Shown here one piece after another: positions 13,717 through 24,814 of a stretch of 43,289 nt of DNA (its first letter is position 1; each line of letters starts with the position of its first letter). The translations under genes were made by a program, and so were the position numbers. Below the pieces are notes generated by a model. It did no database searches. It saw only the letters and a program-made list of their open reading frames with translations, and was not told the origin of the DNA. The DNA comes from Magnetococcales bacterium. GTDB lineage: Bacteria; Pseudomonadota; Magnetococcia; Magnetococcales; UBA8363. The stretch is from the NCBI GenBank assembly GCA_015228925.1, contig JADGCQ010000019.1, forward strand, positions 1 through 43,289. Reading direction: 5' to 3'.

Positions 13717-16700
13717 GTTTCAATCCACACCCCTCGGGCGGGGGGCGACCTGTCAAGAAGCAGAAGACCAAGCCAGTTGTCGAAGTTTCAATCCACGCCC
13801 CCGGGCGGGGGGGCGACCATCGTACAGTCTGTCCGCCCGGAAGAGGGTGACCGTTTCAATCCACGCCCCCCGGGCGGGGGGCGACTTGGGCTACCGGTAC
13901 CCCGAAGCGTGCCATGGACGTTTCAATCCACGCCCCCGGGCGGGGGGCGACTTGGGCTACCGGTACCCCGAAGCGTGCCATGGACGTTTCAATCCACGCC
14001 CCCGGGCGGGGGGCGACCGAAAAATACGACATCTGGTTCTTGGAGCAAGAACTGTTTCAATCCACGCCCCCGGGCGGGGGGCGACGTCCTGGAAAGTGTT
14101 TGCGCCATCGACCACTGATGCGTTTCAATCCACGCCCCCGGGCGGGGGGCGACCTATGAGGTGGGAACATGGACGCCATCCGTTGGCGGTTTCAATCCAC
14201 GCCCCCGGGCGGGGGGCGACCTGGCCATATGTCGATGACGTTTTGAATCTGCTCTTGTTTCAATCCACGCCCCCGGGCGGGGGGCGACGATGCGGCACTG
14301 AGCAATAAGAACCTCTTGCATTACGTTTCAATCCACGCCCCCGGGCGGGGGCGACAGGCTGGACCTGGATCCAGTTAGGGCGGCAATGATGTTTCAATCC
14401 ACGCCCCCGGGCGGGGGGCGACAAAATATTTCACACGTGCGTTTTATTTATTTAAAGTTTCAATCCACGCCCCCGGGCGGGGGGCGACCTGTTTGGCCAT
14501 CCCATGGTGCGCCTCATCCATCAGTTTCAATCCACGCCCCCGGGCGGGGGGCGACAAACTTGGGATCCGTGCGACTGGGGGCAAGGAAGGTTTCAATCCA
14601 CGCCCCCGGGCGGGGGGCGACCCCATCCGCCAGATCCTTCCACAGGCCCATGTCTGTTTCAATCCACGCCCCCGGGCGGGGGGCGACAGTCTATAGGGGC
14701 CGTGGACCTGATCACTGACAAGTTTCAATCCACGCCCCCGGGCGGGGGGCGACGAACCAGTCCCCGCCGAACGCGACGTACTGGATGGTGTTTCAATCCA
14801 CGCCCCCGGGCGGGGGGCGACCTTCTGGATCCACGTTATGGTAATGTCACGAGACGTTTCAATCCACGCCCCCGGGCGGGGGGCGACCGGCGTTGCTGTG
14901 CCGCCGTAGGCGGCAGGAGGCCGTTTCAATCCACGCCCCCGGGCGGGGGGCGACGAAGCACGATCCTGGGTATGTTGGGTGGGCGGAAGGTTTCAATCCA
15001 CGCCCCCGGGCGGGGGGCGACGAACCAAGCCAGCAAAGAAGAGTGCCTGTCATGAGTTTCAATCCACGCCCCCGGGCGGGGGGCGACCGGCGGCGAATAC
15101 GGCTGCGAGCAAAGCCGCACAGGTTTCAATCCACGCCCCCGGGCGGGGGGCGACATTCATCGAAAGGTGGTTCGTGTAATCCAACCCAGGGTTTCAATCC
15201 ACGCCCCGGGCGGGGGGCGACGAAGCACTTCGTAAGTGTCCGATTCGACCATCAAGTTTCAATCCACGCCCCCGGGCGGGGGGCGACCCCGTAGATTGGG
15301 ACTGCTTCAATGCAATTATTCTGGTTTCAATCCACGCCCCCGGGCGGGGGGCGACACTCGCCGGTTTCTCCCAAGCTTTGACCGTACCGCCAGTTTCAAT
15401 CCACGCCCCCGGGCGGGGGGCGACAGACGATTACTCACAGTCCATAACCCGTGATGTAAGTTTCAATCCACGCCCCCGGGCGGGGGGCGACATGCTTTTT
15501 GGTATAAGACGCCTCCACTTTCTTGGTTTCAATCCACGCCCCCGGGCGGGGGGCGACCCCTTCGGACGTAACAAAAACGGCCACATCATCGGTTTCAATC
15601 CACGCCCCCGGGCGGGGGGCGACCCCCCTCTATTTTACCTGTTGGGCAACGCCGTCTTGTTTCAATCCACGCCCCCGGGCGGGGGGCGACGTCTTTTGGT
15701 GTGGCACCATGGGCAACACCAAAAGCGTTTCAATCCACGCCCCCGGGCGGGGGGCGACGTCACTAGTTACCATATTTCCTACCCCTTCAACTGTTTCAAT
15801 CCACGCCCCCGGGCGGGGGGCGACACTGGCTCGACCATCTTCCGCCAATCACTATCCGTGTTTCAATCCACGCCCCCGGGCGGGGGGCGACGTATTTTGT
15901 CGCTGCTCCGGTACGTTTGCAAGCGTTTCAATCCACGCCCCCGGGCTGGGGGGCGACGGGGGGTGCATGTTTTTTTGTGGTTGGGTGAAGGTAGTTTCAA
16001 TCCACGCCCCCGGGCGGGGGGCGACAATGAAGGAGGGCAATGTCTTTCTTGGTGATTTCAGTTTCAATCCACGCCCCCGGGCGGGGGGCGACTTAATGGT
16101 CGATCAATACGTTTCATAAACAATAAGTTTCAATCCACGCCCCCGGGCGGGGGGCGACTATTTTACCGTCCCTCGGCTCAAGCCAAGAGGGTGTTTCAAT
16201 CCACGCCCCCGGGCGGGGGGCGACAATAGTTGGAACGGAATACATTTTAATCATGACGTTTCAATCCACGCCCCCGGGCGGGGGGCGACAACCAGTCGAT
16301 GAGTTACTGGTCTCTCTTATGCGGTTTCAATCCACGCCCCCGGGCGGGGGGCGACCTTGAAATTAAAGGATAACTTATGGATTTTATCGAAGTTTCAATC
16401 CACGCCCCCGGGCGGGGGGCGACGGGCGGTCAAAGGGGGGAAACCAAAAGACACCCTAGTTTCAATCCACGCCCCCGGGCGGGGGGCGACGCAGCACAGG
16501 CGGGCGTCACCCAGGCAACAGCGGTTTCAATCCACGCCCCCGGGCGGGGGGCGACACCCGCACCTTACCTGCCAATCGGTTACGATCATGGTTTCAATCC
16601 ACGCCCCCGGGCGGGGGGCGACGTCTATGCCCGTCTTTGTACTCCATCACTACGTAAGTTTCAATCCACGCCCCCGGGCGGGGGGCGACCCGCACCTTAC

Positions 16701-22700: not shown

Positions 22701-24814
22701 CGGAATGCAGTGTGATCAAGTTTCAATCCACGCCCCCGGGCGGGGGGCGACCAGCTTTCCATGGATCTGCCACATGAAGAGCATGAAGTTTCAATCCACG
22801 CCCCCGGGCGGGGGGCGACCATCCAGGCCGCTGTTTATCTCCAAGCGGCCTACGTTTCAATCCACGCCCCCGGGCGGGGGGCGACGGGCGGGCGGAAAAA
22901 AAAGAGGGGAAAGGACAAAGTTTCAATCCACGCCCCCGGGCGGGGGGCGACGCATGGATCACCGTGGGTAGGATAGGTGAACCCCCAGTTTCAATCCACG
23001 CCCCCGGGCGGGGGGCGACTCTCCCGGTCGATGACGCGCGAGCTTGGCGAGCCGTTTCAATCCACGCCCCCGGGCGGGGGGCGACCAAGCATATGGCTGG
23101 AGACTCCGTGACTGTCGCAGTTTCAATCCACGCCCCCGGGCGGGGGGCGACGGCCGCCTCTTGGGTGTTTAGGAGATCAGTCATGGTTTCAATCCACGCC
23201 CCCGGGCGGGGGGCGACATCGTTTCAATTCGTGGAACATGGCACGCAAATAGGTTTCAATCCACGCCCCCGGGCGGGGGGCGACCCCCAGTCGGAAGAGA
23301 AAATCGCACATCCTGAATGTTTCAATCCACGCCCCCGGGCGGGGGGCGACCTCCAATCGCGCCTCGGATGACCAGGGGCTGGAGTTTCAATCCACGCCCC
23401 CGGGCGGGGGGCGACGCTTTGGAGCAAAATCACAAAATCTAGGGCTTGAAGTTTCAATCCACGCCCCCGGGCGGGGGGCGACGGCCCAAACCGTCATCGG
23501 GCCACCAGATCCTGACAAGTTTCAATCCACGCCCCCGGGCGGGGGGCGACTTGTAAGGCATAATCCCATCCTCCGATCCCTGCGAGTTTCAATCCACGCC
23601 CCCGGGCGGGGGGCGACGGTTCCTCAACGCCGTCCGGGGCGACAAGATCGGAGTTTCAATCCACGCCCCCGGGCGGGGGGCGACCATTTACGCGCCTATA
23701 TGCTGATAGGCTACGACAAGTTTCAATCCACGCCCCCGGGCGGGGGGCGACTAATCGCAACCACCTGGCCTGTTCCTCTACGCGGGTTTCAATCCACGCC
23801 CCCGGGCGGGGGGCGACTTTAATTTGCTTGGCCATCCATCTGCCGGAAGGGTTTCAATCCACGCCCCCGGGCGGGGGGCGACCCGCAAGGCATGGTCCAA
23901 GGTATGCCACAACAACAGTTTCAATCCACGCCCCCGGGCGGGGGGCGACCCATCTTGGTTACGGCAACCGATCCGATGCACATGTTTCAATCCACGCCCC
24001 CGGGCGGGGGGCGACGTAGGACCGGACGTAAGCCGGTCTACAAAGGTGTGGTTTCAATCCACGCCCCCGGGCGGGGGGCGACAATCCGGGGATAATCCAA
24101 CGCGCAGACGAATCAAGTTTCAATCCACGCCCCCGGGCGGGGGGCGACAAGAACAAGGCATCGCGGCACTTGTCCGGCATGATGTTTCAATCCACGCCCC
24201 CGGGCGGGGGGCGACCGCGACCGGAGAAGCCTACGGGGATGTCAAGGCGTTTCAATCCACGCCCCCGGGCGGGGGGCGACAGGGACAGGTGCAGGGGTCG
24301 AGATCAGCACAAAAGTTTCAATCCACGCCCCCGGGCGGGGGGCGACCCACAAACAACGGCGAGTTGCTGCACGGGTCACACCGTTTCAATCCACGCCCCC
24401 GGGCGGGGGGCGACGGACGGCGCGTCATCAATAAGGATCGCTTGCAAGCAGTTTCAATCCACGCCCCCGGGCGGGGGGCGACACTTTAATTTGTCTGGCC
24501 ATAGCCCTGCCCGATGGGTTTCAATCCACGCCCCCGGGCGGGGGGCGACAGATATTTTCATTTGCTGGTGATGTCAACGATACGGTTTCAATCCACGCCC
24601 CCGGGCGGGGGGCGACAATGATGGATATATCTTCTTTTTGTCTTTCATCTGTTTCAATCCACGCCCCCGGGCGGGGGGCGACTTCTTGATCAGACATTGG
24701 TTCGGCCACTACCGGAGTTTCAATCCACGCCCCCGGGCGGGGGGCGACATTTCTTGATCCGTTGGTTTCACAACACCCATGCGTTTCAATCCACGCCCCC
24801 GGGCGGGGGGCGAC
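13717..24814 (-). CRISPR. Type I-C CRISPR array, 167 repeats and 166 spacers
   Basis: Counted by hand: 167 repeats, start-to-start spacing always 65-69 bases. The standard repeat is 32 bases, GTTTCAATCCACG...GGGCGAC on the plus strand, and spacers are 33-37 bases, most often 34-35. In the crRNA sense (minus strand) bases 3-9 pair with 15-21 around a 5-base loop, leaving 11 bases ending ATTGAAAC, as expected for Cas5 processing in type I-C. The array thus reads from 24814 down to 13717, away from cas2. Seven repeats deviate, all in the leader-distal part: starts 13717 (33 bases, two changes), 13785 and 13853 (33), 14325 and 15191 (31), 15925 (33, T inserted) and 18190 (G to A). Spacers are numbered here from the low-coordinate end. 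Confidence 0.98.
13886..13985. repeat. Duplicated spacer unit (spacers 3 and 4)
   Basis: Spacers at 13886-13919 and 13952-13985 are identical over all 34 bases and flank one repeat. This is best explained by duplication of a repeat-spacer unit through recombination between repeats, near the oldest end of the array. Confidence 0.9.

Follow-up and report, generated by a model that had tools for sequence, protein, structure and literature searches.

Repeated sampling of drifting phage families at TTC or TTT motifs, with chance re-use of individual sites, very probably explains the related spacers in a long type I-C CRISPR array of a Magnetococcales bacterium. The array lies within the window, the whole 43,289-nucleotide stretch of DNA analysed here (contig JADGCQ010000019.1). 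The phenomenon itself is known and the present case is an unusually readable one; a further puzzle is that the same genome still harbours some of the phages that the array targets.

The array consists of 167 repeats and 166 spacers of 33–37 nt each, and 160 of the 167 repeats are identical 32-mers, the remaining seven being variants. It is read on the minus strand, with low-numbered spacers taken as old, because degenerate repeats lie at the 13717 end, the cas genes lie on the other side (24815 onwards) and the PAM side is concordant; the order of acquisition is likewise inferred from these three features. The predicted genes beside it comprise the type I-C signature set (Cas8c/Csd1, Cas5c, Cas7/Csd2, Cas3 and Cas1-Cas2-Cas4), with NCBIfam profiles above cut-off for Cas1c, Cas4, Csd2, Csd1, Cas5c, the cas3 core and the HD domain, and Cas2 recognized by position only. 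Judged from its genes, the system is apparently intact. It shares with other type I-C arrays (Cas1c-Cas4-Cas7-Cas8c-Cas5c-Cas3) the complete gene set, a repeat ending GTGGATTGAAAC and a TTC-type motif; the machinery shows no difference from these, whereas the array is long. Further along the window, a HEPN gene adjoins a nucleotidyltransferase gene, a pair of the MNT-HEPN toxin–antitoxin type (37906-38632), and an AAA_21 ATPase and DUF4276 pair matches the PADLOC candidate defence system HEC-01 (41617-43271).

Table 1. Features of the array and its cas operon, with the related and self-targeting spacers, in window coordinates
Feature	Coordinates	Strand	Evidence or remark
Type I-C CRISPR array, 167 repeats/166 spacers	13717..24814	-	leader side at high-coordinate end; oldest end at 13717
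Spacer 2	13818..13852	-	22-nt overlap with spacer 96, one change
Spacers 3 and 4 plus intervening repeat	13886..13985	-	exact adjacent duplicate
Spacer 24	15288..15323	-	35/36, TTC PAM, intact seed, helicase gene of resident tailed prophage
Spacer 36, secretin site	16093..16126	-	29/34 to C141:1431-1464, TTC PAM
Spacer 43 (APYLPIGYDH)	16556..16590	-	nucleotide and peptide comparison; target not found
Spacer 45	16690..16723	-	site of 43, shifted 2 nt
Spacer 58	17554..17587	-	nucleotide comparison
Spacer 60 (TFNQWLRSNE)	17686..17719	-	nucleotide and peptide comparison; target not found
Spacer 61	17752..17786	-	spacer 58 plus one base, PAM side
Spacer 80, Zot/pI site RSAIESHFMQV	19021..19054	-	31/34 to C141:2504-2537, TTC PAM
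Spacer 82	19155..19188	-	34/34, TTC PAM, resident tailed prophage C111:100333-100366
Spacer 83	19221..19254	-	33/34 to resident inovirus C141:8607-8640, TTC PAM, intact seed
Spacer 86, same site as 80	19419..19452	-	30/34 to C141:2504-2537, TTC PAM; five synonymous differences from 80
Spacer 96	20084..20119	-	overlaps spacer 2
Spacer 98, same site as 36	20219..20253	-	32/35 to C141:1430-1464, TTC PAM
Spacer 110	21020..21053	-	relative of 60, nucleotide and peptide comparison
Spacer 119 (APYVPIGYDH)	21622..21654	-	diverged relative of 43/45, 26/29 nt
Spacer 134	22618..22652	-	34/35, TTC PAM, intact seed, resident inovirus C141:4008-4042
Spacer 152 (PSGRWMAKQIK)	23818..23850	-	peptide comparison; target not found
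Spacer 162 (PSGRAMARQIK)	24483..24517	-	relative of 152, peptide comparison
Cas2-like ORF, 96 aa, cas1-array interval	25000..25290	-	position and size, without profile match
cas1 (type I-C)	25300..26337	-	TIGR03640, E 1.3e-141
cas4	26341..27129	-	TIGR00372, E 1.1e-34
cas7 (Csd2)	26994..27851	-	TIGR02589, E 5.1e-92
cas8c (Csd1)	27872..29797	-	TIGR01863, E 2.9e-118
cas5c	29799..30545	-	TIGR01876, E 1.8e-73
cas3, HD and helicase domains	30502..32958	-	TIGR01596, TIGR01587

A first-pass annotation, made by reading the array by eye, had listed eight related groups among the 166 spacers (2/96, 3/4, 36/98, 43/45/119, 58/61, 60/110, 80/86 and 152/162), and objective comparison recovers exactly these eight. 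In an ungapped nucleotide all-against-all on both strands, with dinucleotide shuffles as the null (best shuffled score 14), 58/61, 3/4, 43/45, 36/98, 80/86, 45/119, 2/96 and 60/110 stand above the null; 152/162 (13.0) and the previously unlisted pair 115/133 (13.5) lie within the noise. The top ranks of a six-frame peptide all-against-all are the eight groups, 152/162 scoring 44 and 2/96 scoring 37 against a null maximum of 32. One extra pair, 100/102, ties the weakest group at 37 with its members on opposite strands, and its kinship is probably chance. Spacer 150 (RAYMLIGYD), considered as a relative of 43/119, was dropped with a score not above the null.

The groups differ in kind. Spacers 3 and 4 are identical neighbours at the old end of the array, where duplication of one unit is the most likely origin; 58 and 61 are identical apart from one additional base, and 43 and 45 represent one site with a 2-base shift. 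Point differences are confined to 36/98, 80/86, 43-45/119, 60/110, 152/162 and 2/96 (one change).

Phage targets were sought by searching the concatenated spacers against the whole draft genome that holds the window (4.25 Mb, 219 contigs), in which matches outside the array are confined to contigs C111, C141 and C106. Reversed or shuffled spacers gave no matches. Altogether, 36 of the 166 spacers match prophages of the same draft genome or its genus, and 130 have no match; spacer 81, which matches within a low-complexity repeat, is excluded from all counts. The assigned spacers fall on an inovirus family (23), one tailed prophage (7) and another tailed phage group (6). Most spacers of uncultured bacteria have no known target, and about one fifth of one long array is now tied to identified phage groups in Magnetococcales. 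The best-match motifs are TTC for 23 of the 36, TTT for 10 and other motifs for three, in keeping with the TTC PAM that type I-C systems use on the 5' side of the protospacer. Read on the plus strand, PAM positions 2-3 are AA in 34 of 36 cases, and GAA (equivalent to TTC) occupies the PAM in 23 of 36 against a GAA background of 1.9%.

The integrated filamentous phage at C141:1-8900 encodes Zot, a secretin, an inovirus coat protein and a DUF2523 protein. Its predicted Zot/pI morphogenesis ATPase (PF05707, E 5.8e-47) and short major coat protein of 86 aa (above the cut-off of PF05356 Inovirus Coat B, E 6.9e-6) together would place it among the inoviruses. A few kilobases beyond it lie type I restriction genes (HsdS-like and HsdR-like; locus L018:12957-18575). 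Contig C106 encodes an integrase, the end of a second secretin and, at the expected place of a replication gene, a 434-aa ORF that matches no Pfam family. It most likely forms one second inovirus prophage with C133, since the last 55 bases of C106 recur, with one difference, at the start of C133 and a second Zot lies on C133; the Zot of this inovirus shares 73% identity with its counterpart in Magnetococcales bacterium DCbin4 (genome G002). The inovirus of DCbin4 is in turn matched by 12 spacers, one of them at 35/35. The resident tailed prophage on C111 encodes a GpA terminase, a lambda-type portal, capsid E, a CI-type repressor and an integrase adjoining tRNA-Arg, and six spacers match tailed phages in two related genomes (G001:C154 and G004:C21). 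Correlations of mismatch number with array position have opposite signs: rho is -0.51 for the C141 inovirus (P 0.06) and 0.58 for the inovirus of DCbin4 (P 0.048), a hint of lineage change that is too weak to claim. The earlier idea of one dominant enemy thus holds in part: a single inovirus family accounts for 23 of the 36 assigned spacers, but others fall on two groups of tailed phages and 130 spacers lack a target.

Two pairs of related spacers each converge on a single protospacer. Within the secretin gene, spacers 36 and 98 map to C141:1430-1464; within the Zot/pI gene, spacers 80 and 86 map to C141:2504-2537; and at all four the PAM adjoining the spacer is GAA on the plus strand, that is, TTC. 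The expectation that the members of a related pair would fall, next to a TTC-type PAM, on the same orthologous gene is therefore borne out for these two groups, the other six being without a located target. The resident C141 prophage carries a third allele at both sites. With paired alleles at one site, the array becomes a sampled history of phage sequence drift.

In spacer–phage coevolution, protospacers diverge mainly at silent sites. The same silent divergence is seen here, with the difference that several alleles of one site are held in a single array. From the spacers alone, the earlier statement that six groups concentrate their changes at one codon position was overstated. Only 80/86 is significant, with all five changes at one codon position and an identical peptide RSAIESHFMQV (P ~0.003-0.007); the other point-difference groups give codon-position P values of 0.06-0.16, and 2/96 is uninformative. 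Comparison with the phages nevertheless bears the idea out. Among all assigned spacers whose target site is covered by a gene, the 128 spacer–phage mismatches fall 22/15/91 on codon positions 1/2/3 (P ~1e-18), and 90 of them are synonymous against 34.5 expected (P ~1e-24), so that 71% are at third positions and 70% synonymous. Neither unrelated targets nor an absence of codon bias, either of which would have spoken against the original reading, was found; this holds for the groups with located targets.

The same data bear on two other origins of the pairs. Duplication of a repeat–spacer unit within the array followed by mutation is the likeliest reading for the exact neighbours 3/4 alone and is very improbable as a general account. 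Read in the phage frame, the differences within 80/86 and within 36/98 are all synonymous, a constraint that mutation within an array would not respect, and a third allele of both exists in the C141 prophage. Moreover, 43/45 and 58/61 differ in the spacer cut point, fitting separate acquisition, and the identity of 160 of 167 repeats indicates that the array mutates little. Selection of CRISPR escape mutations in the phage, as opposed to neutral drift, is likewise an improbable source of the synonymous differences, if less so. Some resident-prophage sites do show seed mismatches, for example at position 3 for spacers 6 and 93. However, seed mismatches are not enriched in the resident prophages (14/196, 7.1%, against 54/775, 7.0%, outside the seed), an equality that fits drift rather than escape, and the third-position bias extends across all assigned matches.

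How identical sites came to be re-used is a separate question. Type I systems prime on mismatched targets, and the first-pass annotation had offered primed adaptation as a possibility: an old mismatched spacer would recognize a diverged phage and steer acquisition nearby, so that the same positions are used again. Half of the C141 matches (7/14) do fall in a 1.2-kb stretch around the secretin gene, and spacers of the same family occur within four array positions of each other 14 times against 10–11.5 expected. This clustering is weak (P 0.06-0.17) and lends the proposal no clear support, and re-use of an identical protospacer is not in itself a signature of priming. In addition, the C141 inovirus offers 371 TTC sites on both strands, among which 23 random spacers would already yield 0.7 same-site pairs; the two observed are slightly above this chance expectation, so neither a hotspot nor a special mechanism is needed. 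Priming is accordingly a doubtful explanation of the pairs, and we infer random re-sampling during separate infections over time.

Repeated acquisition from diverged phage relatives is supported by the prophage matches, the shared protospacers, the TTC PAM and the third-position bias. Under this reading, a small number of persistent phage families, comprising inoviruses (filamentous phages that integrate) and temperate tailed phages, would have supplied the array with spacers again and again at TTC (or TTT) motifs. Between infections the phages would have drifted, chiefly at synonymous sites, and whenever a motif site was resampled by chance, that piece of coding sequence would have been stored once more in a synonymous variant.

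The targets of 43/45/119, 60/110, 152/162, 2/96, 58/61 and 3/4 were not found in IMG/VR, INPHARED, PLSDB, GTDB genomes or relatives within the order, with INPHARED and PLSDB giving no match for any group lacking a target. Single inovirus and helicase proteins retrieved no relatives from IMG/VR; an alignment of Zot proteins did retrieve loci, 80 in IMG/VR and 32 in GTDB genomes, among which there are no convincing spacer matches beyond the known DCbin4 inovirus. Back-translated patterns of 43/119 and 60/110, searched against IMG/VR, GTDB genomes and order relatives, returned only the array itself and one match with two mismatches. Tailed prophages located through their helicase in five related genomes (G001, G005, G006, G008 and G012) also gave no convincing spacer matches.

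Several spacers target prophages that reside in the same draft genome. Six self-target sites combine a TTC PAM and a seed free of mismatches with no more than two mismatches overall, two on C111 (spacers 24 and 82) and four on C141 (spacers 79, 83, 99 and 134). Self-targeting by a system with intact-looking genes should be lethal, and experimental targeting of a Pf1 prophage was found to be so by Roux et al. 2019 (PMC6813254). Because the six self-targets persist beside apparently intact type I-C genes, immunity is probably silenced or inhibited. Besides an inhibitor, cas silencing or strain mixing in the draft assembly may account for the persistence. As its named relatives are metagenome bins, the draft genome may be one too, in which case the array and the prophages possibly do not share one cell.

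In their survey, Roux et al. 2019 (PMC6813254) reported 1,150 inovirus-matching spacers, retaining matches with 0-1 mismatch, and found that 43 of 45 self-targeted inoviruses co-occur with dsDNA phages, suggesting anti-CRISPRs acting in trans. As in those self-targeting cases, the targeted inovirus here sits beside a targeted tailed prophage; unlike the survey, the present analysis concerns one array, with 23 spacers on one inovirus family and paired alleles at two sites. A tentative reading is that an as yet undescribed inhibitor encoded by the C111 tailed prophage blocks type I-C interference and would shield both that prophage itself (spacer 82, 100% identity and TTC PAM) and, acting in trans, the inovirus prophage resident beside it (spacers 134, 83, 79 and 99). 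If so, the array documents an immunity suppressed by its own targets. Ten small C111 proteins showed no match to known anti-CRISPR families, and the resident prophages contain no solitary repeat of the kind seen in RNA anti-CRISPRs. The persisting targeted prophages offer a concrete starting point for seeking an inhibitor of type I-C. The C111 prophage also carries a gene with a NADAR domain (locus L013:12738-13196).
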